Assembly: GCA_905221615.1 (NCBI GenBank)
Contig: CAJNDT010003235.1
Location: 493,275 to 557,274, forward strand
Length of the DNA: 64,000 nt
Direction of reading: 5' to 3'
Origin: Symbiodinium sp. CCMP2592
Lineage: Eukaryota > Sar > Dinophyceae > Suessiales > Symbiodiniaceae
Shown: positions 67 to 54,803 of the stretch, piece by piece
Numbering within the stretch: the stretch's first letter is position 1
Layout of the letters: every line of letters starts with the position of its first letter
The notes under the pieces: generated by a model
Database searches by the model: none
Seen by the model: the letters and a program-made list of their open reading frames with translations, nothing else
What the model was told of the DNA's origin: nothing
Made by a program: the position numbers and the translations under genes

Positions 67-93
67 CTTGTAGACACCGCGGCTGCCCATGAC
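67..93 (-). CDS. Arylsulfatase exon 29 (VMGSRGVYK)
   Basis: Encodes VMGSRGVYK, matching the family's EMFGNRxIYHDGW region. Acceptor GCAG|G; donor probably AAG|GACCC. The remaining C-terminal exons lie left of the window. Confidence 0.75.
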
Positions 94-3000
94 CTGCAAA
101 CACGTCAATGCTGCGAAGGTGTATCACCCTTTTACATATTACAGTGCTGTCGTTTTGAGCTGCTGACTAACGTCGTCCGTGCTGAAAGTAGCGAGACCGC
201 CATGACTGCTCTGCCGCTGACGCTGCTACGCGAAATTGTGGCAGCCTAGATTCATATAGGGGCCTTGAAAACTAGAATAGGGTTTTGGGTCCCATTATAC
301 CACAATTAAAACAAGGACACTCCCCCCCCTCCCCCCCTCCAAAAAAAAAGAAAACAAGCATTGGTAATTATTAAGCCCCCTAATACAGAACCCGAATATA
401 GATCCCTGTAATGTTTAAGCACCCGTATGAGATGAAGTTCTTTCACAAAAAAACAGGTCTCCGGCCGGTCCTCGAAGTATTGGGTGCTCTTCCGTCCCAC
501 TGCAGAGGCATTGTTCCTGGGCAGTGCACCCAAAAGAAACGGAGGGCGACATTCCCACGAAGGCTGCGAAACCCTGAAGCCCCTAAACCCTAAATCCCTG
601 CACCCTAAACCCCTAAACCCCTAACCCCTAAACCTTAAAACCCTAAATCCTAAACCGGTAAACCCTAAACCCTAAACCCATCATTTCGTCTGAGTTCCAG
701 GTGTACATCATGGAGACGCCATCAAGAGGCATCCTCGGCTCCAAGGATAGGATTAGGGTTTAGGGCTTAGGGCTTTAGGGTTTAGGGATAGGGGCTTTAC
801 TGTACTTAGACTCCCGGTAAAAGTTGGAATTTCAGCTGTTTCTTAAGGATTAAAGGAACAAAATATTAGAAGATCTTTATAAGTACCCCTGAGGACTACG
901 GGGTTTGGGATCCTTGGGCTCGAAGGATAAGAATAAGATGGGGTTTGGGGTTTGGGGTGCAGGGCTTCCAGGATCAGGGCTTCAACTTCTTTGTCCAGTG
1001 TCCTAGGGGAACTAGACTTTGGGATGATCTCGGGGTCCTGATACCACCAAAATGTTGCAGGATAGCTACTCTACCACTACGCCAGGGACAAGAATATTTA
1101 GACTAGGGCCCTGGTGTATGTTATGACGTAACAGATTTAGGTCTGAAAGGCTTGAGTTGCTCAGGGTTGGTGAGTATGGGGTTGAAGTCAGATCTCAACG
1201 ACTTTAATGTGCAGAGGCCAGGCCAGGATAGGGGCCTTGGTCTTTGAATTGGGTTTGGGAGTACCTGGACCCTACGGAACCTTCCTTTTTAGGGCCCCCG
1301 TAATATGATTTCTTTATATAAGTTCCTAAAAAGGAAGGTTGGGTTAAGGTATAGTATAAGTTTATGTAAGTAGCATGGTCTTCCCCAGAGCCACATACTA
1401 GTCTCTCGGGCCCCATGCTATAGTCAAGCCATCTTCAAGTTCCAGAAACCATAACCTCAAGCGTGAGGCAAAGAAAGGACTCTGAGAATTGACAAAATCC
1501 CAAACCCCAAGGCCGCAAACAGTACTTTGAGGTTCATGGGTTCTTTTAAGTCGGGTTATAAGAGGGTAACTGTACTTATAACCCATATAGGGGGACTTAC
1601 AACCCCACTTAGAACTACCCCTAAACCCTATAGAACCCGTCAAGGAACCCTTACAGGAACCCCATAACCCTAAACCCAAAACCCTGGAAGTTTCTAGAGT
1701 AGCAAGGTCCAGTAAGCGCAGCTCCGTCACTGGGCCGTGCCTTCCACATGCTCTGGCACCTTGATACCAATCGCCTGATGGATGGCAAATGGGATCAAAT
1801 GGTCCTAGGTACTGTTATGGGGGATACTTCCCAAGGGTTTAAGGTTCCGTTAGGGGGTTTAGGGTTCCTTTACGAGGCTTAGGGTTCCTTTATGAAAATT
1901 CTGACTTCCCCAAATCGTAAAAGTAATTCCTGATATAGAAATCCTACATTCTACCATGTAGGTACTTTGGACCCTTTTGGGGGAGTCTCATGTGGATTTA
2001 GCTTCGGCTTGGGGTTTAGGGCTTAGGCCTTATTAGCGCTGAGGGTTTAGAGTTTAGGCTCTAAGGTTAGAATATAAGGTTCCAAAATAAGGCTTCAGGT
2101 TAAGGGCTTAGGGTTTTGGGTTGAGGGTGCAGTATAAGGTTCCAAGAATCAACCGTCCGGCACCCATAATAACCGGTACCTACACTTCCAGATCCTATCC
2201 ATTAAACTACATACCCGAAAATGGGGGTAGCGTATGACCCGACCCCATATGTATGGTGCCCATCTTGGACTAGTGAGGTGGTCTTTGGGAGGTCTAGCGA
2301 ACTTGAGGGTTGCTTCTCACACCCAAAGCCAGCCCAGCACCATACGCAGGATCTAAAATCACCTGAGGCTTGAGGAACCCATCTGCAAAGCAGTCAAGCC
2401 CTAAATCACCCGAAATGCCAAACTAGGTGCCGATGTCAAGAACCCCCAAAATTATTTATAGCCAGGGATCTATACTACCACCAATAAGGGAAAGAAAAAA
2501 TTACCCCAAATCGATACCTAGCATTAAACCTAGCAAAGACCAGGTTGAGTTTCGAGACCGGCGCAAAAGGTTGATTTGCTTCTGCGCGAACTTGAGTTCA
2601 ATCGAAGCCATACCCTGACATAACTTGGGTACTGTCTCCACCCTGTGACAGTCGGTATTATGTGTCATCATAAGGTCATCATTACTGTTGGCATGAATAT
2701 TAAGATTTCTTAATAATATATTTCTATTGTTTATATATATATATATATATATGCTACAGGGTAGGGTCAGAATCCAAGATATAATTTTGGGCCTTGGAGT
2801 AACCATGGAGAAAAAAGGCATAAACTCATATTTCATTCTGGCTCCTTTAGGCAAGAGGTGCAAAAGAAGCATTAAACCATTGCAGCAAGCTTCGAACTGT
2901 GGTGTTCCCCTTGTGGAATGGTTGGGTGCCGTGGGCTGCATGTTGAGGCTTCAAGTTTCAGCGGGGGGCGGGGCGAGAGACCGCACGGCGTGCGACCATA

Positions 3001-6000
3001 TGTAGGGTCCATAAACACTAGAACAGGGTCTTGGAACATATCCTACCTAGGATGCCCAGTAACCTAGGAATAAAACGGGCTCCCTTTTTGGTATTGGGCA
3101 CCTTACTAAGGAATCTGGGACTACAAAAAGGGAATCTACCATACTGGAAGAAGCACGATAAAGGGATATCATATCACCGCCACAAGCTCAGACATCCACT
3201 TGTTGCTCCAGCTCCTACACCCTAAACGTACACCCCAAGGCCCCAAACCTAATCCGCGACACCGAAACCCCCGAACCCTCTTCTTCAACAACCGGGCCCC
3301 AAAAAGTTCAAACTTTCTAAGATAGAGCTAATATATACGGCCAAAAAGTTTAAAGTTCCCCCGTTCGCTATCTAAGCAAACAAAATCGCCGAACCTTAAA
3401 GCCTGTAAGACTCTGGAAACCGTGGAGACTGTCTGTAAAAGCCACTCGAGGCTCGTTTCCGTAAATCTAGACACCTGAACTCTACAGTAGAAGCCCAAAA
3501 GTTAGAAACCCCAGAGCCTCCATCCTTAAGAGTAATGTATAGGGAATCCCAGCACTATTTGGCCTTAATCCAGTTTCCAACTTTCCAGGGTTTGCCCTAG
3601 ATCCCCAAAACCTCACCTCTAAAGGGACCCTTACGTTCTACAGGGGTTCTATAGGGTTCCTTTAAAGGGATCTACAAGGGTTCCTGTAAGGGATCGACCT
3701 TAGATCCCCAACTTTATGGGTTTTGCTGTAAGACCCCTCATCCTCTAGGCCCCTCAACCCTGGGGTGTAGGGTTTAGGGAATTTAGGGGTTAGCTAGGGC
3801 TTAGGGTTCCTTAAAGGGATCTATAGGGATTTCTTTCAAGGGATCCATAAGGGATCTATAGGTCTGTAGGGTTTAGGGTTTAGGGGTTTAGGGTTTGTTT
3901 ATGATTTAGGGGTTTAGGGTCTCGGGTTTAAAACCTTCAAACCCTGCCTCGTAGATTGTTGGCACGATGTCGCAGACATGGTGGAATTGGGATCGCGGAG
4001 TTGAATCCTAGCGCGGCTTCTGCTTCAAGTAGGTCCCACTGAGCCAAAACGTTTAGGGATTCAGGGGTAGGGGGTTCAGGATTTAGTAATTTGGGGATTA
4101 GGTTTCAAGGGTCAGTTCCGCCTAAGTGTTTCAGAGGTTAGGCTTCGGCACTTCAAGCACCGCTCGATCTACCCATCCTTATTACACCACATCTAGAAAT
4201 CCTAAAGCTCAAACCTCAATCCAAATCCTAAACCCCTGAACCGTTCTTTAGCCTCAAACCCTAAGCCACTCAGCCCTGCGTTGATATGGAAGCTTTCAAA
4301 AATAGGGGGCCCGAATGTAGTACCCTAAATAGTAGGATCCTCATTATAAGGACCCCAAAATACTGTAAGGTACCCAAAATTTTCGGAAACCCTAAACCCT
4401 AAACCCTGTATAGAACCCTTAGAGATCCCTTTACGGAGCCTGTATAGATCCCTTTAAGGTACCCCTACTTTTCGGAAACTCCCCCAAAATGGCATCACTC
4501 TACACCAGGAGCTTTGCAGCGAAAAAAAGGCCCCGGTCTGAGCTCATCTCTGACTTCCCAGAGGCTCCAATATCCCTTAATTAAGGGTTTAGGGTTTAGG
4601 GTTTAGGGTTTAGGGGATTCTAACATCCCTTAATTAAGGGTTTAGGGTTTAGGGTTTAGGGTTTAGGGTTCTTTGCTCCTAGGATCCCTTAATTAAGGAA
4701 TCTACCTTAAATTACAAGCGGACCCCTTATATGATTTAAGGAATCTCCCTTAATCAAGGGATATACCTTAACTATTATAATAGGATCTCTTATATGATTT
4801 AAGGAATATTCCTTAATTAAGGGATGTTGGAGTCTCTGAGAATTCACCAACCGTGTCCCAAGCATCGAGAAGGAGTTTTTCGGGTTAGAGGCTAATACTA
4901 AAGGTTCAAAGTTCAGGCTGTACCTTAACCTACCCAAACAAGGACCCCTTGCCTTAACCCCAAATGACCCACCTTTTAAAGACATATATAAAGAATCATA
5001 TTAGAAAACCCTAAGAAGGGCAGGTTCCTTAGGGTTCCGGTAGAGGCCACATGCCACATACCTGCAAGGCCTGGAGCTTGCTCTGGCGGGTTCTATAGTA
5101 ACCACCCTCCCTTACTAGACCAGAGAAACCTAGGAATATATGAGAAGGGTGCCCCTTTTTGGTTTAAATGGTGTTAAGGGAACCTGAAGCCTAAAAAAAG
5201 GGAATAAGGGCTTACTCCGGGTCTTCGGAGAATATGACAATGGCCCCAAACCCCGGAGTTGTAAACCCCAAACCCTAAGGCCCAAACCCTCATTCCTCCT
5301 AAACCTGGAAGACGATACTTGGAGGGTCGGGGGACTTAGTCACTGTTTATTTTAGGGACTTATAAGTACCATAACCCCAACTAGGGTCCCTTTTAGGGTA
5401 CTTTTAAGTCTACGTACTACCTACTTACTAAGTCCCCCGACCCTCCAAGTAGCTCTTCCTGAGCTAAAGCAGCATTCGTCCCAAGACGATGGTATGGTTA
5501 CATTAACGAAGCCTTGGCGAATAATGTTGGTAGTTGTTCAAGCACCTATAATATCACCCCATAAAAATCCGAGAAGGACCCCAGCTTTATCTTACGACCC
5601 AGGGTCATGCTTGATGACGTTTGGCCAGGACATAACCAGCGGAGTTCCTCGGCGAATGGACTCTATGGGGGTTTGGGGGTCAAAGGGTTTAGTGCATAGA
5701 GCTTAGGCAGTTTAAGGTCAGGGTTTAGGGCTCAAGGGGTCAAGGGTTAAGGGGCTTAGTGTTTAGGGCTTTGGAGGTTTAGCGGTTTAGGGTCAAGTAC
5801 AGGGGTGTAGGGCTTTGGGGTTTGGGGTTTGGGGTTATCCTATGGGCCGCACAAACTATATAACTTCTTCACGCTGCAGACTGATGCTTCTCTTTCCAAG
5901 TTGGGTTGGATGTTGTTGAGGCTTTTCTAGATTCTAAGGCCCCTAACCCGAAAGCCTGATCCATAAACAAAACCCCAAACCCTAAACCCTTCAACCCTGA

Positions 6001-21000: not shown

Positions 21001-23209
21001 CCGTACGGTTCAGGGTATACAGGGTGTGGTTTCTGTTTAAGTTGTGATGACGTCCGTTTGTCTGGCTCAAAACTTGACCTGAAAGCTCAGACAGCATCGG
21101 AGGCGGGTTCGGGGTTTAGGGCCCAGCGTTTAGGTTTGAGGGTTTAGGGGTGTAGCGCTGTCTCCTAGCACGGCTTGATAGGGCTTAGAGTTTTTCTTTT
21201 TGACTATGTTGACGGCCCTTTCTTCTGAACGCGCCAGCCCTATTCGGGCTCATAGCTGTGAACCACGTAGAGTTTCGGGCCTAGGGTTTGGGTTTCAACT
21301 ACGTTTTGGATGCTTTTGCAGGTTGGTTGGTTGGCTTGGACGTTTAGGCGGGCCAGTACCTCGCAGTTAAGCAAATCAGGAATACTTTTTACTGCTAGGT
21401 CGTACCCCCAAGGCCGAAACTGAACTCCGAAACAACAACTACACCCCGAACTCCTAAACAACCCCTAAACCCTAATCCATAGCGCCACTTCTTCTAGACC
21501 CAAGAGTAGCCTAGGAATAAAAAGGGTGCCCTTTTTGGTTTAAAGGGGCTTATAAGGGAACCTGAACCCTAAAAAAGGGAATAAGGGCCTACTCTAGGTC
21601 CTAGTCTTTGGCTAGGTTCAAGATGGAGAACCAAGATCCGAACACCCAGGGAACATTGCGCAAGTCAGCCCCAAAACTATTTAGGAGTTTCCGATAATAG
21701 GGGACCCTAACACAATACCCTAAATAGTAGTATCCTTAATAATGAGGACCCCAAAATACCGTACCCCTACGTTTCGGACACTCCCATTTAGAGTATGCCC
21801 CCTTGGGAAACCCTAAACCCCTAAACCCTAGACCCTGAACCTTGCTCACTGACAGGCTGATTCCTTCATTGACTGACGTTGAATAGGGCGCGGTACTATA
21901 GGGGCCTTAACAATGAGACTAAGGCTCCCTTGAAGGGGTCCTGTAAAGGGGCCTATAGGGGATCAGGGGCCTAAATGATCAGAATAGGGTGTTGGGACAT
22001 ATTTTCCTATAGCTGTAATAAGGAACCCTAGGAAAAAGATTGGTAATTTTTAAGGCCCCTGTAGAAGGCATTAAGATGCCATATTACCGGGTTGACAACC
22101 TGGAGCCTGCATGTACAAAGAAAGAACTAAACATATACAGAAGATCTTTACATGTCCTAGTCAATGGCTGGCATAGAACCAGAATCTAAGTTTCTAGTTC
22201 GTAATGGGCTTAAGTACCCATAGAAATGCAACCTGTTACCCAACTATGACAAAGATTCCCCTTTTTTAAGCTTCCTCTAGGGTGTAGGGTTTAGGGCTCA
22301 GGGGCTATGCAGGGTAGGCGGCCGATCCGGTGTCAAAGCGCGGTTGTTGCGGATGAACTTGATGGCTTGGTCAGCGAGATCCTCCCATGGAAGGGCTTTG
22401 GTTTGGGGTTAGGGTGTAGGGTAAAGGCTTTGGGTTCAAAAGTTTAGGGTCTAGGTGGGGTTCTAGAGAGTCAAGGTTTGAGAGTTGTCGTTTTGGGGAA
22501 TCTTGGCCACGGGCTAGGGTCAACCCCTTGTGAAGGCTATACAACTTCCAGAGCAACGGTTTTCTGTCAGGCCTCCACAACTGGACTCGGGTTTGGGAGC
22601 CTGTTTCCTCAAAAAACAATGGAACCCCAGGAAAATCTTGCGAAGTTTTCATACTAAACCCTAAAGCCTAAACCCACCTTTGAGAATTGTCCCCTTTGCT
22701 GATGCTTCCGGGATGAAGTCTGGTGGTCACAAGCCATCAAAACCAAATCCCTGCAAGCTCTGCAGTTTACCTCAAAACAATCTCCTTATACATACGTACA
22801 TACATACATACAGAGACCTATAATATATATATATATATAGATATATACACACAAAATAATATATATATGTACACACACATGTGTATGCGTGTGTGCATGT
22901 GTGTGTATGTATGTGTATGTATGTGTATGTATCTGTATGTTTGTGTATGTATGTGTATGTATGTGTATGTATGTGTATGTATGTGTATGTATGTGTATGT
23001 ATGTGTATGTATGTGTATGTATGTGTATGACTGTGTATGTATGTGTATGTATGTATGTATGTATGTATGTATGTGTGTATGTATGCATGTAGGCATATAT
23101 GTATGTCAATGTAACTGCGTAAGTATGTATGTTTAAGTATGTGTATGTATGTGCGTATGCATATTTCCATGTATGTGTGTAGGCATGTATGTACGCATAT
23201 ATGCATATA

Positions 23210-23246
<37 letters not shown>

Positions 23247-29200: not shown

Positions 29201-32200
29201 TAGTCCCCTTAGAGTAGTCCTTATAGGAACCCTTTAAAGGGAACCCTTTTTGGCCTCCTATGAAACCCGGACTATTGAAGTGCCGGCTCTTGCGGCCAAG
29301 GCCTTTGCCACCGTCGCCGCGGACTTTGGGATTGTTCCGGTGTAGCCAGGAAAGCCTGGAGAAGGGATTGCATAAGGCGAGTATAGATGGATTTAGGGTT
29401 CAAGGTCTAGGAGAGATCTGTGAATAGATGGATTTAGAGTTCAACTTTGGGGAGAAATCTGTGAATAGATGGATCTAGGGTTCAAGGTTTAGGAGCTATG
29501 TGTGAATCCTGCGAATATGCGCTCGCGCGTGTGGCGGATGCCCAAGTTCGGGTGTTGCAAAGCACGGGACCGACCGTCTGTGCGGGATCCTAAGTTGCCA
29601 CTTGCTTATCAAAGCGGGTTCACGGAAGGCTCATCTGTATTGCGGGTCTTTTCAGGGTGCCCCTTAACCCTGAATAATCTGCCTTTTTCAGGACTTATAC
29701 AAGGAAATCATAATAAGGAACCCTAAAAAGGTATGTTGTTCAGGGTTAAGGTACGTAGGACAATGGTTCGGATTTAGGATTCTTGATTGTTTGAGATTCG
29801 TGGTCATGGGGGCTTCAGCATGCGATGCCATGGCAGGATGTTGTAAGAATCCGCAACTTCAACTCCCCCTAAAGGCGCTTCGACGAGGAAAAGTTTCGGT
29901 CTCCTTCCCTCTCACCTCAGCCAGTACTGACATATGGGTGGTTGTCAAAATTAGGGTCCCTTGTTGGCTGCCCTAAATATTAGGTGCCGTATCATAATAG
30001 GGACCCAAAAAGGTACCATAATCTTGACAACCGCCAATATACATGATTATAAATGGCATCGCATGTCATCCCTACACCCCAAACCCTACACCCCTAAAGC
30101 TCGGACCCTAAACACTAGACATCCCCAAACCCCAAACCCCAAACCCTACACCCCTAAAGCTCGGACCCTAAACCCTGAACCCAAAAACCCTCAAAATCCC
30201 ACACCCTAGACCACCTAGGATACCCAGTAACCTACGAAAAAAAAGGCCTCTCTTTTTGGTATTGGGTAACTTTATAAGGAACCTAGGACTACAAAAAGGG
30301 AATAAGGGTACTACCGGGCATCCTAGACCACCTAATTTTCGGAAACCCTAAACCCTTTATAGAACCCTTATAGATCCCTTTAAGGAACCCTTATAGATCC
30401 CTTTAAAGAACCTAAAAGTGCCTAAAAGGAGTGCGAGAGCTCAGACAGAGCCGGCCCCAGCCTGCTGCAGCCTCCGTGATCTGCCCAGCGCCGATGTTGT
30501 GAGAATTCCTTGGGTTGACGAGTTTTTTGAGTTTAGGGTGTAGGGCAGGATTTTAGAGTTTAGGGTTTAGGGGTTAGGTTTTTATAGATTTTTAGGCCGG
30601 CAGGCTTCAAGGGCTTATAGTAAAAGCCAGAAAGTTGGAATATCATTATCGTAACCCTTTTAAGGTAAGTTATAGGGGATCCTACCATTAATCCATATTC
30701 CAACTTTCTGGAGTTCCCTTTAGGGTGTAGGGCTAAGGGTTTATAAGGCTTGAGGGTCAGGGCTTGAGGGTTTTAGGGCTTCACCCCATGTAATGCTTCG
30801 GACATTTGGGATTTACGGTTGATGATTGGCGAAGGGTCTTTTGTATACGAGTATCAGAAGGCTGTATAGGTTCTCATCGACTGGCTTTCATTAAGGGTTC
30901 CACTATGGCTTTGTGCATTGTAGTAGCTTTGTGCATGTTTGCTTGTTCTGGTGCTTGCGCTCCTCTTAGGGTTTGAGGCTTCGTTTAGAAGTTTAGGGGT
31001 TTTCCGGATTGGGGTTTCTAGGATCCTGGCTCAAGTCTTATGGCTTCCAGGGCTTCGGGTGCCTAGTTTCGGGGGGGGGGGGGGGGGGTGAGTCTTAGAA
31101 TAGTGCGAGAGTTGGAGCAAGCTGCGTGGCAGGTTTATCCAGAGAGCCTTGTAGGTTGAACTGGACCCTAGCTTTGAACATGTTGGCAGTCACTAAATGA
31201 TAAATCCTCTTTGTGCCCCTGTGCTAGGGAACTGAGACTCAATCTCCCAAAGATGCTCTCTACAGGATCTAACCGACCAATGTTTGAGGCGTTTCCCTGA
31301 ATTAGGCGCGGCAGGGTGTTGTGGATGCAAATCCCCCGCAAACTCCGAGCCCAAACACAAATCCCAAACTCAACCCCAAACGCAAAGCCCACCACCTTCA
31401 AACCCTAAACCCTGAACCCTAACCTTAGAGATCCCTTATGGATCCCTTTAACGGAACCCCTGTAGATCCCTTTAAAGGAACCCTAAGCCCTACAAACCTT
31501 CCTCGAACAAGCTTCCGGCCGGTCAGAACGGACGCCCGCGTGGGGGAGCAGATTGCGGTGGTGTGGAAGCGATTGTAGGACACACCCCGCGACGCGATCT
31601 TCGACCTGGGAAGGAAGACAGGTGGTGGTGCTGGTGGTGCTGGTGCTGCTGGTGCTGCTGGTGCTGCTGGTGCTGCTGGTGCTGCTGGTGCTGCTGGTGC
31701 TGCTGGTGCTGCTGGTGCTGGTGGTGCTGCTGGTGCTGCTGGTGCTGCTGGTGCTGCTGGTGCTGCTGGTGCTGCTGGTGCTGCTGGTGCTGCTGATGCT
31801 GCTGGTGCTGGTGGTGCTGGTGGTGCTGGTGGTGCTGGTGGTGCTGGTGGTGCTGGTGGTGCTGGTGGTGCTGGTGGTGCTGGTGGTGCTGGTGGTGCTG
31901 GTGGTGCTGGTGGTGCTGGTGGTGCTGGGGCTTTGGGCTATCCAATAATCCAATACTGTAAGACGGACAAGAATAAATGAATAAAGGCATACTGCTGCTA
32001 GTTGTTCAGACCTCTCTCTATCATGGCTCAAATGCACACAGGGCCGGAACATTATACCTAGATGCAGAGCCGTAACATTCTAATTTTTTTTTTGGGGGGG
32101 GGCCTTAAGAATCAGAATAGGGGTTTGGGGCTCATTCATACTGCAATTAAAATAAGGAACCAGCAGAACAGCATCAGTGGTAAGTGTTTGCAATTATTTA

Positions 32201-35200
32201 GGCCCCCATATGGGAGTTTCCGAAAATAGGGGACCCCAATATAGCACCCTAAATAGTAGGATCCTTATTATGAGGACCCCAAAATAAGGTACCCCTTGTT
32301 TTCGCATATTAGACTGACACTTCAGACGAACCACAGAGTCGGTGTGTGGATGGGACCGCCGAAGGTGTCGGGCGCTCCAAATCCCACATCATCGTTCCTT
32401 ACAGGGTTTAGGGTTCAGGGTTCAGGGTTTGGGGTTTGGGGCTTTAGGCTTTTTCGATTGCATTAAAGGCCGCGCAAGATGAGGGGGGCTGAGACCAAAC
32501 GTTCATAATTACTTGCAAAAGGTTTGCAGGGGTACCTCGTACGACCGTACACCAGAACTCCCCGTAATATTCGGGCTCCTAAGTTAGCTTGGGATTTTAA
32601 GTTTGGGTTCAGGTTTGAAGGAAGCGTCGTCAATCAGAGAGCTTCTGGTTGCAAGAAGGGCCCCTGAAGGAATAGCATTGCGAGTTGCTAGTTGTTCGGG
32701 CTTCCACAGGAAACAAAGGTGGGACTGCACTTCGGGTTGGTGCTCCTTGTTGTATAGAAGTGCTTGATCCGTGGCTTTCGATTTCGGTCTGTTATATAAG
32801 CCCCCGAACCCTAAGGGCCAAGACCCGAAACCCTCGCTACAAATGAAACCCTAAACTGCTACAGACACCCTAAACCTCGCTGGCCCAAAACCCAAGCAAA
32901 TAAAAGTTGAAACTTCCAGAATCGACTACCTTATAAGAACCCCGCAAGTTGAAAAGTTGAGTTTACAGCCAATGAGAACCCGTAAACCTTAAGCTGAACA
33001 CCTCGAATATAAGAGCCTGAATAGTTACCATATAGTATTCCTTAGAGTTCCTGAGTAAACTTATAGTATAATGTACCCTGGACCGACGGTGCCGGGGTTT
33101 CTTGAAGGGGTTCTGAACCGGATATTATGCGAGTTAGGGATAGGGTTTATGGGGTTTAGGGATATCAGACAGGTTTCGTATAGTGTGGGGGGACGCAACA
33201 GTTTTAACGGGGATTCTAACGATAAGGCGCTTAAGGGTTGATGCAGCTTCAACTTTACGACGTAAGGGGTGACGGGGCCTTGCATTCGGTTTCGGCTCTG
33301 TGTCGTTGATGCCCACACCCCAATGCTGCGGCTTTGGCACATAATAACCACGATGTTCGGAGCGTTCTTCTTCAGTATCTCACGCTTTTTCGGCCAGCTG
33401 TTCCTGGGACTCGACACGTGGGGGAGGTAGGGGTGTTCAACATATCGGAGTTTCGCAGCGATGACTCCTTCGCATCATAATTCCTGAACCTGTCAAGTTC
33501 GTGCTAGCGCGACATGCTCGATGTGCGCCGTCTCAATTCCGTACTGATACAGGACTTCTATTCCAAGATTGGGCCTTAGAGTTTAGGGTTTGGGGATGCT
33601 TGGGGTGTAACCTGAGCCCAAACCTAACGCGTTGATTCCGATTGCGCGTGACATTTGACATTGATACTTGGTCTCATAATAAAACCGACCATAGGCAATG
33701 GAACCCAAATTCCTGCGTTCCCAACCCAACGGCAACCCCTGGTGGTTCTATGGGAACCCTAATCCCTACTACACCCCCATAAGCTAAAACCCATTTTCGA
33801 CTCCTATCAAACAAATTTCTCCCAAAAAGGTCAGGTAGCTTGGAGTCTGCTAGAGTCGGTCCCACCACGGCCTCGGTTCAACACAGGGCTTCGGGTTTAG
33901 GGGTTTAGGGTGCAGGGTTTACACGGTTTAGGGTTTTATTCTACAGGGCTCCTGCAAGGGGCTCTGAAAAGGCCTACAAAGGGCTCTGCAAAGGGGCTAC
34001 CATATGGTCTACTGTAAGAAGATCGTATTGCAGTGGCTTTTATCTTAAACATCAGGACTTTACAACATATCTATAAAATTCTATAATCATACAGAGCGCT
34101 GACCAGCAGCATTGCGAATATTCAAGCTTCCATGTTTGGCTTCAGGATTCCGGGCTTTTGATCTCGGGTTTAGGTTAGGTGGGTTCACCCGAAACCCCAT
34201 TCAACTTGAAGCCTGACTTCCCCCAACCACCCTAATGTACTTGGAGGGTCGGGGGACTTAGTAAGTAGGTATAGTAAGTAGACATATAAGTACCCCAAAG
34301 GGGACCCTAATTGGGGTTATGGTACTTATAAGTCCCTAAAATAACCAGTTACTAGGTCCCCCGACCCTCCAAGTAGGGGCCTTAACCTGGTCCTCTTCCT
34401 CCGGCCACCAGTCCTGCTCCTCTGAGTCTGGGTCCCTGTCGTCCTTCCGTCGCATTCCCCGACTGCTCGCACTCCCTTTCTTCTGGCAAGCACGACTTGT
34501 CGGGAACGTCCTCGTCGCAGTCATTGCCGGGGAGCCGTAGCCGCTTTAGCTTCTGAATGCGTTCATGGCAGGCTAGGCGAGATGCCCTCTCTTTGCACTC
34601 CGCGCGTTTTTTTCTGGGCAAGAATATCGGCTCTCCGAAAGGCGACTTCGACGGGTTGGACATGGCGCGGAGAGAGTGTAGCACGTCACATGTAACGGAA
34701 CGGCTGAGCACCCTGCACTCAGCACCTGAAGTCCTAAACCCTATTCTGCCCTAAACGCTAATACCCTACACCTTCTCGTCTAAAGCCTAAACCCAACTGC
34801 TGAAACCCCAAGCCCTAAACCCTCATACCGTACGCCTTGCTAACCCTCAGCGCTGAGCCCTGAACCCTAATACGCTTGAGATCCCGAAACCCTCAACCCT
34901 AAATCCTAAGCCCGAAACCCTAATACCCCACACCCTGAACCCTCAAGCGAAGTCCACCCCAAACCCAACAATCCTAAAACCCCCAAACCCTGAAATCCTA
35001 AGCCCCGAAACCGAAAACCCCAAATCCCAAACCCCAAAAGCCTACGCCTTGAACCCTCATTTCAACTCCTGGGTCATAGGTTCCCCCCCTTTAGAGGAAT
35101 CCTGAAATCCTTTTAAGGGAACCCAAACACGCCTGAAACCTAATACCCTTATACCTTACACCCGAACACTGAAACCCTAATACCCTCTTGCCATCCCGAA

Positions 35201-35395
35201 ACCCTAAACCCTAAATCCTACACCCAAAGCCTGAAACCAAAATACCCTACTTCCCTAGACCTTGAACCCTCAACTCAACTCCTAGCGCATCGCGGGCACC
35301 TCGGAGGGCATCGGCGGAAAAGGAAGGTCCGCGCCAGGAAACTGCGCCATCCCAAGGCCAGCCCCGAAGAGAAGGCCCAGAGCCGGCCCAAGCAT
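67..35395 (-). CDS. Split arylsulfatase gene, 29 exons found, 3' end off window
   Basis: Arylsulfatases hydrolyse sulfate esters using a formylglycine made from the Cys of C-x-P-S/T-R. Read on the minus strand, 29 small exons give the Pseudomonas AtsA-type order: [129 protein letters not shown] and STQYFE. Candidates for all AtsA active-site positions are present: two Asp, Cys, Arg, Lys/His of GKWH, His of THGPHH, Asp-Asn of GDNG, and a Lys before HFGGTR. Exon 1 supplies a signal peptide, so the product is probably secreted or vacuolar. Found coding sequence is about 1.54 kb; the C-terminus lies beyond base 67. Donors are GC, GT or GA; almost all acceptors are AG|G. Uncertain joins are 14-15, 27-28 and the end of exon 29. 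No frame break is visible, so it looks functional. Confidence 0.87.
94..470 (-). other. Intron 28
   Basis: Holds an IR-F type inverted-repeat element (about 253-387) with a C-rich/A-rich core at 318-352. Nothing else recognised. Confidence 0.6.
471..499 (-). CDS. Arylsulfatase exon 28, 29 nt (GRKSTQYFE)
   Basis: Encodes GRKSTQYFE. Acceptor GCAG|T is the only one not followed by G. Donor GAG|GACCG (GA type). Confidence 0.8.
585..679. repeat. CCCTAAA-type telomere-like tract
   Basis: Degenerate CCCTAAA units to the left of exon 27, so they lie at the donor side of intron 27 and read TTTAGGG on the transcript strand. Confidence 0.85.
687..733 (-). CDS. Arylsulfatase exon 27 ([12 protein letters not shown])
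   Basis: Encodes [16 protein letters not shown]. Acceptor CGAG|G. The 3' end is approximate: no standard donor gives the phase exon 28 needs. Confidence 0.85.
734..1730 (-). other. Intron 26
   Basis: TTTAGGG-type tract at about 753-790, an IR-M element (1278-1347), a worn IR-B copy (about 1522-1620) and CCCTAAA-type sequence at 1668-1685. No coding sequence recognised. Confidence 0.6.
1278..1347. repeat. Inverted-repeat element, family IR-M
   Basis: Near-palindrome with arms AACCTTCCTTTTTAGG and CCTAAAAAGGAAGGTT. Related copies lie at 7779 and 8654. Confidence 0.6.
1731..1774 (-). CDS. Arylsulfatase exon 26 ([14 protein letters not shown])
   Basis: Encodes [14 protein letters not shown] plus a split Gln codon. 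Acceptor TCAG|G, donor CA|GTGAC (GT type). Confidence 0.88.
1775..3947 (-). other. Intron 25
   Basis: TTTAGGG-type tracts (about 1838-2115 and 3768-3930), a (TA)n run at 2733-2752, an IR-H element (3042-3150) and runs of the GATCCCTTTAAAGGAACCC-like motif in reverse orientation (3650-3860). No coding sequence recognised. Confidence 0.6.
3042..3150. repeat. Inverted-repeat element, family IR-H
   Basis: Shares the CCTAGGATxCCCAGTAACCT start and a CCCTTTTTGGTATTGGG core with the copy at 30213-30326. Confidence 0.6.
3948..4007 (-). CDS. Arylsulfatase exon 25 ([15 protein letters not shown])
   Basis: Twenty codons, DSTPR followed by [15 protein letters not shown], one of the best-conserved C-terminal blocks. 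Acceptor CTAG|G, donor GAG|GCAGG (GC type). Confidence 0.93.
4288..4391. repeat. IR-A copy, degenerate
   Basis: Matches the IR-A layout (AAAATAGGGG start, TAGTAGGATCC centre, TTTTCGGAAACC end), but both termini are worn and no target duplication is clear. Confidence 0.55.
4565..4835. repeat. TTAATTAA palindromes with TTTAGGG arrays (IR-J)
   Basis: CCCTTAATTAAGG occurs repeatedly; two copies run straight into TTTAGGG arrays (about 4584-4613 and 4637-4670). Arms TCCAATATCCCTTAATTAAG and its inverse near 4825 suggest nested insertion. A related piece is at 26682-26746. Confidence 0.7.
5111..5222. repeat. Inverted-repeat element, family IR-I
   Basis: Arms begin near TACTAGACC and end near TTACTCCGGGTC, around a GGGTGCCCCTTTTTGG core. 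A second copy is at 21494-21604. Confidence 0.55.
5316..5451. repeat. Inverted-repeat element, family IR-C
   Basis: Arms TACTTGGAGGGTCGGGGGAC and the exact inverse at 5432-5451. Flanking TA is consistent with a TA target duplication. It is the reverse-orientation relative of 34238-34375. Confidence 0.85.
5607..5647 (-). CDS. Arylsulfatase exon 24 ([13 protein letters not shown])
   Basis: Encodes [13 protein letters not shown]. Acceptor CGAG|G. The donor is taken as CAT|GACCC (GA type) because it keeps phase with exon 25. Confidence 0.85.
5648..6299 (-). other. Intron 23
   Basis: TTTAGGG-type sequence next to exon 24 (5681-5835) and CCCTAAA-type sequence on the other side (5972-6020). Otherwise nothing recognised. 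Confidence 0.55.
6300..6340 (-). CDS. Arylsulfatase exon 23 ([13 protein letters not shown])
   Basis: Encodes [13 protein letters not shown], with a Lys in the position of the substrate-binding Lys of AtsA. Acceptor CGAG|G, donor near AGA|GCC; the join to exon 24 can slide by one G. Confidence 0.9.
6341..7451 (-). other. Intron 22
   Basis: IR-B element at 6501-6615, an AT-rich GATTATGATCATTATGA-like stretch (6740-6880), tandem AAGGTACCCT-like units (7195-7350) and a CCCTAAA tract (7355-7405). Confidence 0.6.
6501..6615. repeat. Inverted-repeat element, family IR-B
   Basis: Left arm TACATGGAGGTTCAGGGGTA, right arm TACCCAATGAACCTCCAAGT; the interior repeats ACTTATAA-type words. Related copies are at 9604 and 27586. 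Confidence 0.75.
7452..7508 (-). CDS. Arylsulfatase exon 22 ([15 protein letters not shown])
   Basis: Encodes [18 protein letters not shown]. Acceptor AAAG|G, donor AA|GCCAC (GC type). The split Lys codon completes with exon 23. Confidence 0.92.
7517..7665. repeat. Telomere-like variant array (GGGTTTATA)n
   Basis: About 16 units of GGGTTTATA and close variants, beginning nine bases from the acceptor of exon 22. Long hydrophobic frames here are only repeat translation. Confidence 0.9.
7779..7841. repeat. Inverted-repeat element, family IR-M
   Basis: Arms AACCTACCTTTTTTAGGG and AGTCCCTAAACAGGTAGGTT. Confidence 0.6.
8654..8715. repeat. Inverted-repeat element, family IR-M
   Basis: Arms AACCTACCTTCTTTAGG and CCTTGAAAAGGTAGGTT; it sits just downstream of exon 21's donor. 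Confidence 0.6.
8742..8785 (-). CDS. Arylsulfatase exon 21 ([10 protein letters not shown])
   Basis: Encodes [14 protein letters not shown]. Acceptor GCAG|G, donor AA|GCATC (GC type); the split Lys codon completes with exon 22. Confidence 0.88.
8786..9459 (-). other. Intron 20
   Basis: TTTAGGG-type sequence near exon 21 (8828-8840), IR-A copy (9061-9161) and CCCTAAA tract next to exon 20 (9405-9450). Confidence 0.6.
9061..9161. repeat. IR-A copy with ATAT target duplication
   Basis: Starts GAGAGTTTCCGAAAATAGGG and ends CTATTTTCAGAAACCCCC. ATAT flanks both sides (9057-9060 and 9162-9165). Confidence 0.85.
9460..9521 (-). CDS. Arylsulfatase exon 20 ([15 protein letters not shown])
   Basis: Encodes [20 protein letters not shown] after a split Gly codon. 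Acceptor AAAG|G, donor GAG|GACTT (GA type). Confidence 0.9.
9522..10975 (-). other. Intron 19
   Basis: IR-B element (9604-9714), mixed TTTAGGG/CCCTAAA tracts (9540-10040 and 10260-10345), GATCCCTTTAAAGGAA-like repeats (10345-10395). No coding sequence recognised. Confidence 0.6.
9604..9714. repeat. Inverted-repeat element, family IR-B
   Basis: Arms TACTTGGCGGTTCAGGGGT and TTTGAACCTCCAAGTA; the ends read TA, consistent with a TA target site. Confidence 0.75.
10976..11015 (-). CDS. Arylsulfatase exon 19 ([13 protein letters not shown])
   Basis: Encodes [13 protein letters not shown]. The Asp-Asn of GDNG completes the metal site. Acceptor CCAG|G, donor AAG|GTCAG (GT type). Confidence 0.94.
11016..11850 (-). 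other. Intron 18
   Basis: Frames of up to 115 codons on the plus strand (11072-11700) match nothing I recognise. CCCTAAA-type sequence at 11690-11745 lies next to exon 18's donor. Confidence 0.5.
11851..11886 (-). CDS. Arylsulfatase exon 18 ([12 protein letters not shown])
   Basis: Twelve codons, [12 protein letters not shown]. It joins exon 17 (..KVIE) and exon 19 (VIYILGDNG..) in phase 0. Acceptor TCAG|G, donor TTG|GCTG (GC type). Confidence 0.88.
12172..12266. repeat. IR-A copy with ATGT target duplication
   Basis: Starts AAGGGTTTCCGAAAATTAGG, ends CCTTCGGAAACTCCC, flanked by ATGT on both sides (12168-12171, 12267-12270). Confidence 0.82.
12341..12404. repeat. Short palindromic element
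   Basis: TGGTTAGTAGGGAATGGAG and CCCATTCCCTACTAACCCA face each other around a short AT-rich core. Single copy in the window. Confidence 0.6.
12793..13320 (-). pseudogene. Worn coding relic of unknown family inside intron 17
   Basis: The minus strand keeps protein-like sequence in pieces: [20 protein letters not shown], then in another frame [19 protein letters not shown], then [19 protein letters not shown] followed by a stop and [19 protein letters not shown] to a natural-looking end near 12793. At least two frameshifts and one stop break it. Composition differs from the surrounding telomere-like repeats. I do not recognise the family; an old retrocopy dropped into the intron is the simplest reading. 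Confidence 0.4.
13617..13670 (-). CDS. Arylsulfatase exon 17 ([12 protein letters not shown])
   Basis: Eighteen codons, [18 protein letters not shown]. Acceptor GCAG|G, donor GAG|GACTG (GA type). Confidence 0.92.
13671..14271 (-). other. Intron 16
   Basis: Short opposed telomere-like tract (13860-13960) and an IR-F type element (14053-14243) ending about 30 bp from exon 16. Confidence 0.55.
14053..14243. repeat. Inverted-repeat element, family IR-F
   Basis: Begins TATATAGGGGCCTCAATAAG and ends CATTAAGGCCCCTACGTTA; the interior carries an inner AGAATAGGGG/CCCTGTTCTA pair. Confidence 0.6.
14272..14323 (-). CDS. Arylsulfatase exon 16 ([15 protein letters not shown])
   Basis: Encodes [17 protein letters not shown]. 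Acceptor CTAG|G, donor GAG|GCTGG (GC type), phase 0 into exon 17. Confidence 0.9.
14662..14690 (-). CDS. Arylsulfatase exon 15, 29 nt (ELTAIDPTM)
   Basis: Encodes ELTAIDPTM, like the LTPRDPTM stretch of relatives. Acceptor CCAG|G, donor CA|GAAGC (GA type); the split codon gives Gln before WEDIPE. Confidence 0.75.
16726..19200 (-). pseudogene. GC-rich degenerate coding region of unknown family
   Basis: This block lacks telomere-like repeats and keeps protein-like minus-strand pieces in shifting frames. At 18930-19187: [20 protein letters not shown] and [20 protein letters not shown], continuing in another frame toward 18830. At 16726-17212: an acidic stretch with [15 protein letters not shown], then [20 protein letters not shown] and [20 protein letters not shown] in the next frame. 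A 235-codon open frame spans 18257-18964. Frameshifts and stops argue against one intact gene. One or more old retrocopies inside intron 14 is an inference; unidentified exons are the alternative. Confidence 0.33.
20122..20220. repeat. IR-A copy, left end damaged
   Basis: Right end CTATTTTCGGAGACTCCC is followed by ATAT; the left terminus has lost TTTCCG and shows no matching duplication. Confidence 0.7.
20368..20462 (-). CDS. Arylsulfatase exon 14 ([14 protein letters not shown])
   Basis: Encodes [19 protein letters not shown] and then ITFQKQ. Acceptor CCAG|G. The 3' end is uncertain: a GT donor after CTG at 20368 keeps phase with exon 15, but a few residues usual here in relatives are missing, so an unseen microexon or another donor near 20386 is possible. 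Confidence 0.85.
20463..20849 (-). other. Intron 13
   Basis: Telomere-like words in both orientations; CCCTAAACCCTAAACC lies just past exon 13's donor side (about 20793-20808). Nothing else seen. Confidence 0.6.
20850..20905 (-). CDS. Arylsulfatase exon 13 ([16 protein letters not shown])
   Basis: Encodes [18 protein letters not shown] with the active-site His of THGPHH. Acceptor CGAG|G, donor CA|GTGACG (GT type); the split codon gives Ser before EWADKY. Confidence 0.94.
21494..21604. repeat. Inverted-repeat element, family IR-I
   Basis: Second copy of the 5111 element: GACCCAAGAGTAGCCTAGGA start, TACTCTAGGTC end, GGGTGCCCTTTTTGG core. Confidence 0.55.
21683..21785. repeat. IR-A copy with ATTT target duplication
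   Basis: Starts AGGAGTTTCCGATAATAGGG, ends CGTTTCGGACACTCCC, flanked by ATTT (21679-21682 and 21786-21789). Confidence 0.82.
21894..22071. repeat. Inverted-repeat element, family IR-F
   Basis: Starts ACTATAGGGGCCTTAACAAT and ends TTTTTAAGGCCCCTGTAG, with an inner GGGGTCCTGTAAAGGGGCC repeat. Confidence 0.6.
22323..22381 (-). CDS. Arylsulfatase exon 12 ([13 protein letters not shown])
   Basis: Encodes [19 protein letters not shown], the helix before the PFF strand. Acceptor GAG|G, donor CG|GCC (GC type); the split codon gives Arg before PFF. Confidence 0.9.
22865..23310. repeat. (GTGTATGTAT)n microsatellite block
   Basis: Long run of GTGTATGTAT and GTAT units, with an (AT)n core at 23214-23242 and ATGC runs at 23245-23260. 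Long Tyr/Val- and Thr/His-rich frames here are repeat translation. Confidence 0.95.
24044..24194. repeat. 30-bp tandem array
   Basis: Unit CCTAAGACCCTAAGATCCTA plus AGCCCTAAAG, about five copies, ending 16 bases from exon 11. It is a higher-order derivative of CCCTAAA-type sequence. Confidence 0.9.
24210..24255 (-). CDS. Arylsulfatase exon 11 (EQGYHLTE)
   Basis: Encodes [15 protein letters not shown]. Acceptor GAG|G, donor GAG|GCTC (GC type). The end of an inverted-repeat element lies about 10 bp upstream of the acceptor. Confidence 0.88.
24256..24813 (-). other. Intron 10
   Basis: IR-K element (24266-24361), TTTAGGG tract (24363-24540), half of an IR-F element (24722-24790). Confidence 0.6.
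24266..24361. repeat. Inverted-repeat element, family IR-K
   Basis: Arms TTGATGATAAAAATCCTGCA and TGCAGGATTTCTATCATCAA. A close copy sits at 57399-57495, 33 kb away. Confidence 0.85.
24814..24910 (-). CDS. Arylsulfatase exon 10 ([12 protein letters not shown])
   Basis: Encodes [20 protein letters not shown] and then [11 protein letters not shown]. Acceptor CCAG|GG. The donor is near CGAC|GTAAAAG; the join to exon 11 can slide by one G. Confidence 0.92.
24911..25476 (-). other. Intron 9
   Basis: TTTAGGG words next to exon 10 and again at 25332-25350, and a second copy of the AATTCATTTTAGC..TTCTTAGGGATTATAATAACC repeat (25370-25465) also seen near 15535. Confidence 0.55.
25477..25522 (-). CDS. 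Arylsulfatase exon 9 (GPFDQYPT)
   Basis: Encodes [15 protein letters not shown]. Acceptor CCCAG|G, donor ACAG|GCC (GC type). The split Gly codon completes with exon 10 to read PTGLGFSY. Confidence 0.9.
25523..26761 (-). other. Intron 8
   Basis: TTTAGGG array (25574-25632), a 110-codon minus frame (25656-25988) of unknown meaning, and an IR-J piece with TTAATTAA (26682-26746). Confidence 0.55.
25574..25632. repeat. TTTAGGG telomere-like array
   Basis: About eight TTTAGGG units, one with a C interruption, on the acceptor side of exon 9. Confidence 0.9.
26762..26797 (-). CDS. Arylsulfatase exon 8 ([12 protein letters not shown])
   Basis: Twelve codons, [12 protein letters not shown], carrying the Lys and His of GKWH that contact the substrate sulfate in the family. 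Acceptor GAAG|G, donor CCA|GTGTG. Confidence 0.92.
27279..27407. repeat. Inverted-repeat element with ACCAGTGGA direct repeats
   Basis: TAGGTACTGCCCCC and GGGGGCCGTACCCA form the arms; ACCAGTGGA occurs outside both. An 8-9 bp duplication would suit a hAT-type element, but arm and duplication are offset by two bases on the left. Confidence 0.55.
27586..27698. repeat. Inverted-repeat element, family IR-B
   Basis: Arms TACTTGGAGGTTCATGGGTA and CCCCTGAACCTCCCAGTA around ACTTATAA-rich sequence. Confidence 0.75.
27885..27905 (-). CDS. Arylsulfatase exon 7, 21-nt microexon
   Basis: Encodes only VLSGYGY. It sits between acceptor CACAG|G and donor TAT|GATG (GA type), and exactly fills the gap between exon 6 (..ATVAK) and exon 8 (DTAAFGKWH..) in phase 0 on both sides. 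Confidence 0.75.
27906..29302 (-). other. Intron 6
   Basis: A worn IR-B half (28257-28336), an IR-G element (29041-29158) and CCCTAAA words (28970-29010). No coding sequence recognised. Confidence 0.55.
29041..29158. repeat. Inverted-repeat element, family IR-G
   Basis: Arms AGGAGGCCAAAAAGGGTGGT and AACCCCTCTTGGCCTCCT. A close copy is at 41979-42095 and a partial one near 33748-33806. Confidence 0.8.
29303..29355 (-). CDS. Arylsulfatase exon 6 ([14 protein letters not shown])
   Basis: Encodes [18 protein letters not shown], a hallmark loop of AtsA-type sulfatases. Acceptor CCAG|G, donor AAG|GCC (GC type). Confidence 0.92.
29936..30035. repeat. Inverted-repeat element, family IR-Q
   Basis: Arms GGGTGGTTGTCAAAATTAGG and CCATAATCTTGACAACCGCC, with AGGGTCCC/GGGACCC inner arms and ATAT near both ends. 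Confidence 0.65.
30213..30326. repeat. Inverted-repeat element, family IR-H
   Basis: Arms ACCTAGGATACCCAGTAACC and GTACTACCGGGCATCCTAG, with a CTCTTTTTGGTATTGGG core. Confidence 0.6.
30462..30508 (-). CDS. Arylsulfatase exon 5 ([14 protein letters not shown])
   Basis: Encodes [15 protein letters not shown], the segment after the TGR of exon 4. Acceptor AAG|G, donor CAG|GCTGG (GC type). Both phases agree with the neighbouring exons. Confidence 0.9.
30509..31515 (-). other. Intron 4
   Basis: TTTAGGG words next to exon 5, IR-D element (30627-30712), a 17-G run (31073-31089) and CCCTAAA words next to exon 4 (31400-31410). Confidence 0.6.
30627..30712. repeat. Inverted-repeat element, family IR-D
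   Basis: Arms CCAGAAAGTTGGAATATCAT and ATCCATATTCCAACTTTCTGG. Nearly identical to 58382-58466. Confidence 0.85.
31516..31605 (-). CDS. Arylsulfatase exon 4 (catalytic CSPTR)
   Basis: Encodes [17 protein letters not shown] then [13 protein letters not shown]. The Cys codon at 31548-31550 is the residue converted to formylglycine; the Arg of CSPTR is also an active-site residue. Acceptor CCCAG|G follows a pyrimidine-rich tract at the end of the GCTGCTGGT minisatellite. Donor CG|GAAGC (GA type). Confidence 0.93.
31621..31925. repeat. 9-bp minisatellite (GCTGCTGGT then GCTGGTGGT)
   Basis: Left half is GCTGCTGGT units, right half GCTGGTGGT units, about 34 in all. On the transcript strand it reads CCACCAGCA-type and ends 15 bases before the acceptor of the catalytic exon. 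Long His-Gln, Thr-Ser and Leu-Val frames here are not genes. Confidence 0.95.
32101..32210. repeat. Inverted-repeat element, family IR-F
   Basis: Starts GGCCTTAAGAATCAGAATAG and ends GCAATTATTTAGGCCCCCATA, with CTCATTCATACTGCAATTAA inside. Confidence 0.6.
32212..32305. repeat. IR-A copy with ATAT duplication, right end trimmed
   Basis: Starts GGGAGTTTCCGAAAATAGGG. The right arm has lost part of GAAACTCCC, yet ATAT remains on both sides (32208-32211, 32306-32309). Only 26 bp from exon 3. Confidence 0.8.
32332..32397 (-). CDS. Arylsulfatase exon 3 (NDDVGFG metal site)
   Basis: Encodes [20 protein letters not shown], with the paired Asp residues that bind the active-site calcium in this family. 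Acceptor TAAG|G, donor TG|GTTCG (GT type). Confidence 0.88.
32398..33338 (-). other. Intron 2
   Basis: TTTAGGG/GGGTTTAGG words next to exon 3 (32402-32450) and a few at 33126-33165. Otherwise low-repeat sequence with no recognised coding. Confidence 0.5.
33339..33403 (-). CDS. Arylsulfatase exon 2 ([11 protein letters not shown])
   Basis: Acceptor CCCAG|G. Encodes [13 protein letters not shown] and then APNIVVIM, the first sulfatase beta strand. The donor is T|GCCAAAG; joining to exon 3 gives a Trp codon before NDD. The junction can slide by one G. Confidence 0.8.
34238..34375. repeat. Inverted-repeat element, family IR-C
   Basis: Arms TACTTGGAGGGTCGGGGGAC and its exact inverse, TA at both ends; the body is the reverse complement of the 5316 copy. 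Confidence 0.85.
34382..34711 (-). other. Unidentified open frame in intron 1
   Basis: A charged stretch, [20 protein letters not shown] and on to [17 protein letters not shown], then in the other frame [20 protein letters not shown] up to the IR-C element. Either an exon of another gene or a frameshifted relic; I recognise no family. Exons 1 and 2 of the sulfatase join in phase without it. Confidence 0.3.
35289..35395 (-). CDS. Arylsulfatase exon 1 (signal peptide)
   Basis: ATG at 35395-35393. Residues 1-17, [17 protein letters not shown], form a hydrophobic signal peptide followed by a Pro-rich stretch. The AG just before GATG could be a spliced-leader trans-splice acceptor. The donor is AT|GCGC (GC type); phase 2 completes an ATG codon with exon 2. 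It has no sulfatase motif of its own; the call rests on position, phase and signal peptide. Confidence 0.65.
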
Positions 35396-35640: not shown

Positions 35641-35720
35641 GGTTTACAGGGTTTATGGGGTTTAGAGGGCTTATGCGGCTTATAGGGCGTATAGGGCTTA
35701 TAGCGGCTTATAGGGTTGAG

Positions 35721-49236: not shown

Positions 49237-49320
49237 AAGGAAGAACTGATCCCCTAAGTAGTTGCCTTCCCTATCTACATCTTCCGTCGTCCTCTTTAGC
49301 CTAAACCCAATGTGGTACTC

Positions 49321-53419: not shown

Positions 53420-53451
53420 ATCTGCTCGCGTACCTTCCTCCTTAGCCCTAT

Positions 53452-54759: not shown

Positions 54760-54803
54760 AGTCTATCACCGGGTCGGGCAACGAACCTCCAAGGGCCTCG
54801 GTC

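Follow-up and report, generated by a model that had tools for sequence, protein, structure and literature searches.

The minus strand of the analysed DNA, a stretch of 64,000 nt from Symbiodinium sp. CCMP2592 (the window), carries a real gene that is cut into tiny exons and matches the arylsulfatases. Splice-aware alignment with a profile of 22 relatives placed 31 coding exons between positions 35395 and 67. The gene is not complete in the window; its first ~525 residues, with the catalytic domain, are encoded inside and the last ~272 past the left edge. Considered jointly, the data make it very probable that this is a nuclear dinoflagellate gene for a secreted, bacterial-type arylsulfatase of ~800 residues, which was most likely acquired from a bacterium and then filled with introns.

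Identification and structure of the gene

A six-frame motif search revealed coherent motifs on the minus strand (CSPTR at 31550-31536 and GKWH at 26782-26771) and nothing coherent on the plus strand. Comparison by tblastn with six bacterial arylsulfatases of 755–790 aa (loci L001–L006) gave a collinear minus-strand series that starts with residue 53 at 33387 and reaches residue 522 at 64, together with weaker chance hits on both strands; the order of the pieces was not forced in this search. The 29-residue piece around CSPTR matches plasmid-borne bacterial arylsulfatases, the identity reaching 92% within the first 24 residues of the piece.

The exons were joined by splice-aware dynamic programming (DP), which imposes order and strand and allows GT, GC or GA donors, an AG acceptor and any phase. 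A profile of the six bacterial proteins alone gave 29 pieces. Two of these later proved false, namely the first (34422-34393) and one of 12 nt, SHGY, at 28886-28875, and neither was kept in the second model. The second profile was built from 22 of the highest-ranking relatives (P0001–P0023 without P0019), P0001 included. Exons 1, 2, 8 and 23 were new in the 22-protein model, and exons 3, 7, 21, 22 and 24 had a changed border. Exon 1 was trimmed to the ATG (the DP began one codon earlier) and exon 31 to the GA donor at 67 (the DP ended one codon later, at 64). On the minus strand, this profile scored 1049, as compared with at most 24.4 in ten controls, namely six dinucleotide shuffles (19.4–24.4), the reversed profile (24.0), the plus strand of the same stretch (23.1), and the two strands of 36500-64000 (20.3 for minus and 21.8 for plus).

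Exons of the gene model (a slash marks a splice border, here and below)
Exon 1, 35300..35395, minus, 96 nt coding; signal-peptide-like N-terminus (by eye), preceded by ttag/G; splice-aware DP
Exon 2, 33840..33871, minus, 32 nt; DP, found only with the dinoflagellate profile
Exon 3, 33341..33403, minus, 63 nt; tblastn and DP
Exon 4, 32335..32397, minus, 63 nt; NDDVGFG..., metal-ligand Asp pair at 32393-32388; tblastn and DP
Exon 5, 31516..31605, minus, 90 nt; CSPTR, Cys (candidate formylglycine) codon at 31550-31548 and Arg at 31538-31536; motif search, tblastn and DP
Exon 6, 30462..30508, minus, 47 nt; bacteria-only model and DP
Exon 7, 29303..29355, minus, 53 nt; tblastn and DP
Exon 8, 27885..27905, minus, 21 nt, the smallest; VLSGYGY; DP, found only with the dinoflagellate profile
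Exon 9, 26762..26797, minus, 36 nt; active-site Lys and His; motif search, tblastn and DP
Exon 10, 25477..25522, minus, 46 nt; tblastn and DP
Exon 11, 24829..24910, minus, 82 nt; tblastn and DP
Exon 12, 24210..24255, minus, 46 nt; tblastn and DP
Exon 13, 22323..22381, minus, 59 nt; tblastn and DP
Exon 14, 20850..20905, minus, 56 nt; active-site His at 20871-20869; tblastn and DP
Exon 15, 20387..20462, minus, 76 nt; tblastn and DP
Exon 16, 16098..16128, minus, 31 nt; follows the longest intron (4258 nt); bacteria-only model and DP
Exon 17, 14659..14690, minus, 32 nt; bacteria-only model and DP
Exon 18, 14272..14323, minus, 52 nt; tblastn and DP
Exon 19, 13617..13670, minus, 54 nt; tblastn and DP
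Exon 20, 11851..11886, minus, 36 nt; bacteria-only model and DP
Exon 21, 10967..11015, minus, 49 nt; active-site Asp and Asn at 10997-10992; tblastn and DP
Exon 22, 9460..9521, minus, 62 nt; tblastn and DP
Exon 23, 8742..8785, minus, 44 nt; DP, found only with the dinoflagellate profile
Exon 24, 7452..7508, minus, 57 nt; tblastn and DP
Exon 25, 6303..6340, minus, 38 nt; active-site Lys at 6333-6331; tblastn and DP
Exon 26, 5607..5647, minus, 41 nt; tblastn and DP
Exon 27, 3948..4007, minus, 60 nt; tblastn and DP
Exon 28, 1731..1774, minus, 44 nt; bacteria-only model and DP
Exon 29, 698..733, minus, 36 nt; tblastn and DP
Exon 30, 471..516, minus, 46 nt; bacteria-only model and DP
Exon 31, 67..93, minus, 27 nt; VMGSRGVYK, ends at donor GACCCG; tblastn and DP

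The joined exons comprise 1,575 nt, i.e. 525 codons without a stop and with the consistent phases that had been claimed in the original prediction. They measure 50.8 nt on average (median 47, range 21–96 nt), with 17 of the 31 below 50 nt, in accord with the predicted upper limit of 107 nt and mean of about 53 nt, and they occupy 4.46% of the span, where about 4 percent had been estimated. The 30 introns have a mean length of 1,125 nt (median 1,047, range 181–4,258 nt) and fall into phases 0, 1 and 2 in 13, 5 and 12 cases, respectively; the intron density in the part of the gene inside the window is 19 per kb. Thus, the proposal of a sulfatase split into tiny exons over 67..35395, which named no strand, is upheld by the alignment score, and so is the division into many exons, while the proposed count of 29 gives way to 31 in the window.

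Gene ends and comparison with P0001

The best match of the gene in the protein search was P0001, a protein of 801 residues. The query was the product of the bacteria-only model, to which exon 1 and an extension of exon 3 had been added by eye; 7,998 candidates were scored, all with E <= 0.001, and the query product shares 94% identity with P0001 over its whole length. In the 22-protein model, 520 of the 525 residues are identical to P0001 without a gap. P0001 was itself among the 22 proteins whose profile placed exons 1, 2, 8 and 23 and adjusted further borders, so that the latter figure of 99% is not fully independent, whereas the 94% match of the query product is. P0001 is carried on contigs of at most 2,738 bases, and its coding sequence is therefore intronless there. 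These contigs are probably transcripts, and the gene would be expressed in Symbiodinium sp. CCMP2592; in principle, their source (labelled 'jgi') could be a retrocopy and not a transcript. Of the two refuting checks named with the original prediction, that against sulfatase profiles favoured it, and for the transcript check P0001 served as a proxy.

At the 3' side, exon 31 ends in AAG/GACCCG, a GA donor, with 66 bases left to the window edge. Straight read-through past this exon gives DPLQLPLRGVLNH followed by a stop, whereas P0001, which reads DGWFASVFGPRIPW (DGWFASVFGP) here, has a further 272 residues. The gene had been described as complete-looking, which these data contradict. The order of motifs from the signal peptide onwards was as described, but the YFE block named as C-terminal is not so placed, about one third of the protein being encoded past the window edge.

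At the other end, P0001 begins four residues earlier than the model, with MTMR ahead of the model's initial Met; here the window has TTAG/GATG. The extension in P0001 and the TTAG/G before exon 1 make an upstream exon or a trans-splice site likely. The pattern ATG-3-ATG-[AC] expected of an exon encoding MTMR was absent from the minus strand of 35300-64000.

Protein family and active site

The product of the first-pass model matched the Pfam family PF00884 (Sulfatase) with E = 1.4e-60 over profile positions 1–301 of 301, as anticipated for the joined protein, and gave a partial match to PF16347 just under the cut-off (28.2 vs 29.3 bits). P0001 passes both. The NCBIfam equivalog models gave matches only far below their cut-offs.

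The CSPTR sequence at 31550-31536 conforms to the C-x-P-S/T-R signature, and its Cys is the candidate formylglycine residue. Alignment to 4CXK with the codons mapped showed that the active-site positions of AtsA type are intact in 10 of 10 cases, in agreement with the prediction of intact active-site candidates. The first bases of the codons are D32393, D32390, C31550, R31538, K26779, H26773, H20871, D10997, N10994, and K6333. The metal and sulfate ligands of AtsA are, in numbering and role, presumably D13, D14, R55, K113, H115, H211, D317, N318, and K375, and we take 4CXK (a variant with Ser for Cys) and 1HDH to be the arylsulfatase AtsA of Pseudomonas aeruginosa.

The N-terminus resembles a signal peptide by eye. 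The predicted product is an arylsulfatase of ~800 residues that would be secreted and would have sulfatase activity.

Splice sites

All 30 acceptors read AG/G, although the aligner required only AG. In the bacteria-only model, AG/G was present at 24 of 28 acceptors, and the other four were borders replaced in the second model. The donors are GC in 14 introns, GA in nine and GT in seven (47, 30 and 23%, respectively), so that 23 of the 30 (77%) are non-GT. In Table 2 of PMC10666404, GC, GA and GT account for 52.7, 18.5 and 28.8% of donors in Polarella glacialis and for 51.4, 23.8 and 24.7% in Prorocentrum cordatum, and AGG acceptors for 96.9 and 79.7%, respectively. The splice motifs of the sulfatase gene, with GC, GA and GT donors and AG/G acceptors, fit a dinoflagellate nuclear gene. 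A perfect 21/21-base dinoflagellate spliced leader (DinoSL) is present on the minus strand of the same DNA at 62544-62524.

The gene had been called hidden. This applies to bacterial ORF finders but not to the published dinoflagellate gene-prediction workflows, which, as described in PMC10666404 and PMC7245778, accept GC and GA donors and report such an architecture. Taken as an observation, the original prediction is partly confirmed, being right in substance and wrong on completeness and exon count, and its interpretation is partly supported.

Repeats and other elements of the window

The sequences outside the exons include the following elements.

63489..63768, 11-base unit TGGGAGAGGGT repeated in tandem; four ORF-list entries, from both strands, overlap the array
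62544 to about 61600, minus, DinoSL, then a partial second copy (CTCAAG), then retrocopied coding sequence with in-frame stops; relatives P0121 (69%), P0122 (68%) and the Symbiodinium microadriaticum protein P0123 (61% identity, query coverage 62%)
46330..56812, minus, long open frames that contain a reverse transcriptase of copia type (RVT_2, E 1.4e-11), integrase and zinc finger matches both below cut-off, and a 48-base tandem array at 55502-55935
35412..35734, degenerate telomere-like (TTTAGGG-type) repeat array, with 16 bases between its near end and the exon 1 start codon
About 34663..34390, minus, inside intron 1, short open frame, coding-like by eye, with no Pfam match at E 0.001
About 34380..34237, minus, inside intron 1, MITE-like inverted repeat, ACTTGGAGGGTCGGGGGAC ... 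and its reverse complement (by eye)
31623..31927, array of 34 copies of the 9-base TGGTGCTGC in the intron directly before the CSPTR exon, which the ORF list shows as open in two frames of the minus strand and which mimics coding sequence

The element at 62544 to about 61600 looks like a relic-DinoSL retrogene of the kind treated in PMC7245778, and that at 46330-56812 appears to be LTR-retrotransposon-like. The short open frame of intron 1 could be a nested exon or due to chance. Introns 1 and 26 share 138 bases at 92% identity in opposite orientation. Rfam gave no match in the window at the gathering threshold.

Relatives and origin of the gene

In the aligned part, the model is 99% identical to P0001, 82% to P0019 of Durusdinium trenchii, 81% to P0005 of Effrenium voratum and to P0006 (a 'Symbi...' transcriptome), and 75% to P0016 of Alexandrium monilatum. 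By eye, P0019 departs from the other relatives before VSYNRF and has an extra AKKWKKGSTE near SWPK. These departures look mis-spliced or mis-predicted and fall where the window has no intron, which may weakly indicate that species differ in where their introns lie.

In named bacterial genomes, relatives are encoded by at least 574 of at least 595 pattern-matched stretches. The best 80 of these loci, from many phyla, share 49–59% identity with P0001. Metagenome proteins reach 69% identity to the window model (P0026) and carry precomputed PF00884 matches with or without PF16347. A viral origin was considered and rejected; two stretches in viral contigs fit the pattern and none encodes a relative.

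Introns were looked for in 86 bacterial loci, comprising the best 80 from named genomes and six plasmid loci, with the nearest metagenome rows of the tree outside the count. A GKWH-bearing frame of more than 600 aa without a stop was present in 84 of the 86.

A FastTree phylogeny of 201 rows and a second tree of 95 of these rows, both without P0019, P0024, P0058 and P0070 (rearranged or partial) and the two loci lacking a frame > 600 aa, gave the same dinoflagellate split. In the 95-row tree, with midpoint root, a branch with support 100 separates the 24 dinoflagellate-labelled rows (the window among them) from the rest, with metagenome rows next to them; in the 201-row tree the support is 1.0. 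The window branches with P0001, then P0002, then P0003/P0004, and then P0005/P0006. The sequence evidence was taken to indicate a dinoflagellate host close to the Symbiodiniaceae. The other 23 rows were labelled from identity and source names: P0005, P0006 and P0016 carry a readable dinoflagellate name, eight are of transcriptome type (P0007–P0011, P0013, P0020 and P0025), and twelve were labelled without a source name.

Outside this clade, the 95-row tree shows L005 on a long branch and P0052 as a neighbour of uncertain standing, and the node just outside the dinoflagellate and P0052 group has a support of 0.10 in the 201-row tree. The 68-row group that holds the dinoflagellate clade contains only one of the 28 named bacterial rows, and the nearest neighbours of the clade are metagenome proteins, taken as bacterial from their contigs and company.

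Given that the bacterial relatives lack introns, the gene was most likely acquired from bacteria and gained its spliceosomal introns afterwards. The simplest reading would be one transfer from a bacterium to an early dinoflagellate, with all 30 introns as later gains. An early dinoflagellate would thus have acquired an intronless sulfatase gene, which spliceosomal introns would then have filled to give 30 introns with a mean of 1,125 nt between 31 exons with a mean of 51 nt. The spliceosome would join these exons via GC, GA or GT donors and AG/G acceptors, and the resulting enzyme would be a secreted arylsulfatase of ~800 residues and of the bacterial formylglycine type.

Alternative explanations

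A score of 1049 against 19.4–24.4 in the ten controls, and a joined product nearly identical to the independently assembled P0001, make it vanishingly improbable that short protein-like matches were strung together by chance in repeat-rich sequence, even though exons of 21–32 nt mean nothing alone and two pieces of the bacteria-only model proved false. It is also very unlikely that the locus is a decayed, unexpressed copy, with a different copy making the protein. The five residues that differ from P0001, the C-terminal third lying outside the window and the P0001 start (MTMR) not being found within it would be compatible with a pseudogene. However, the 31 exons are in frame with no stop in 525 codons, the ten active-site positions are intact, and 30 of 30 introns keep G[T/C/A]..AG/G, in which the aligner imposed the donor G and the AG but left the last G free. 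Moreover, 99% identity to P0001 would be unexpected for a long-decayed copy.

Another explanation concerns the source of the introns, which may have been inserted by introners, i.e. DNA transposons with terminal inverted repeats that leave short direct repeats, of 3–5 nt, at the junctions. Elements of this type are described in dinoflagellates (PMC7789003, PMC11453091 and PMC10666404), and dispersed repeats common to several introns were found. Direct repeats at the junctions average 2.8 nt, as compared with 2.39 nt in re-paired junctions of the same gene (permutation p = 0.007), a difference that is confounded by the AG/G proto-splice sequence and may only reflect a preference for AG/G on both sides. 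The re-paired control is the fair one; a background of random G-donor/AG/G pairs (mean 1.73) overstates the effect. The criterion in PMC7789003, as applied in PMC10666404, is inverted repeats of 8–20 nt within 30 nt of both ends. In the exact form used here (>= 8 nt), such repeats were present in none of the 30 introns, with about 1 expected from re-pairing. Within 60 nt of the ends, inverted repeats were present in four of 30 introns vs 5.8 expected; local terminal complementarity was 7.2 vs 7.4 in re-paired ends, and the best terminal matches between intron ends were telomere-like (TTTAGGG-type) sequence. With no terminal inverted repeats found, the introns are either old and eroded or not derived from the described introners. 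An origin from introners is thus unlikely, and ancient introners may perhaps have lost their terminal ends.

Spliceosomal filling of a bacterially acquired gene is the reading retained here. A stronger form of it is possible but falls short of probable, namely that a bacterial gene has gained at least 30 introns since an early dinoflagellate (about 45 if the unseen third is alike), or 19 per kb, with exons too short for classical exon definition, introns too long for classical intron definition, and 23 of 30 donors non-GT. If this is true, the gene would be a dated test case for intron spread and for unconventional splice-site recognition in dinoflagellates. Should the gene indeed be of bacterial ancestry, all its introns would be younger than the transfer, so that orthologues across dinoflagellates could date the individual gains. 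The sizes of exons and introns together would provide a sharp test of exon finding by the dinoflagellate spliceosome. With a splice-aware protein profile, it is feasible to recover from raw dinoflagellate DNA, almost to the residue, a gene with 4.5% coding sequence, exons as short as 21 nt and a majority of non-GT donors.

Comparison with known arylsulfatases and dinoflagellate genes

The window protein is homologous in sequence to AtsA (1HDH and 4CXK) and to 7ALL, and the likeness extends to the ten active-site positions; at the place of the window's Cys, 4CXK carries Ser. AtsA is distant (phmmer E about 1e-50), has 536 aa and lacks the long C-terminal part of the window's family. P. aeruginosa AtsA was therefore rejected as an orthologue, the best relatives having ~770–820 aa. 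The original assignment to AtsA-type sulfatases holds for the motifs but not for the closest relatives, which are bacterial-type and dinoflagellate proteins of the larger size.

The bacterial arylsulfatases of 755–790 aa (WP_144077176.1, WP_007014404.1 and relatives) are collinear with the window gene and share its motifs and length class. Unlike the split gene, they have uninterrupted frames in the 84 of 86 loci described above. The proteins of the dinoflagellate clade belong to the same family, with 801 aa in P0001 and 795–815 aa in the others, a comparison of protein sequences only.

Among the papers listed on dinoflagellate microexons, on arylsulfatases and genomes, and on sulfatases and sulfated polysaccharides, none showed a description of the window gene in its listing; those on microexons do not, by title and opening of the abstract, concern the structure of dinoflagellate genes. 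As reported in PMC10666404, PMC9412976 and PMC7245778, the intron-rich genes of dinoflagellates are alike in their GC, GA and GT donors and AG/G acceptors, and the introns of Suessiales, of about 0.4–1.4 kb, are similar in length to those of the window gene. From Table 2 of PMC10666404, densities of 8.6, 8.9, 9.5 and 8.0 introns per kb were computed for Polarella, S. natans, D. trenchii and C. proliferum, for which the same source gives mean exons of 105.7, 106, 98.7 and 120.4 nt, respectively. Mean exons of 101–158 nt are given for Polarella and four Symbiodiniaceae in PMC7245778, and the mean reported for Prorocentrum is 240 nt, as compared with ~51 nt in the window gene. The gene is thus about twice as finely cut as the published average, which need not make a single gene exceptional. 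By uniting exons of 51 nt, introns of 1.1 kb and a 77% share of non-GT donors in a bacterial-type gene, it makes a useful test case and is no surprise of principle. Such an intron-filled architecture is known for dinoflagellates, and it is the density of its introns that stands out.
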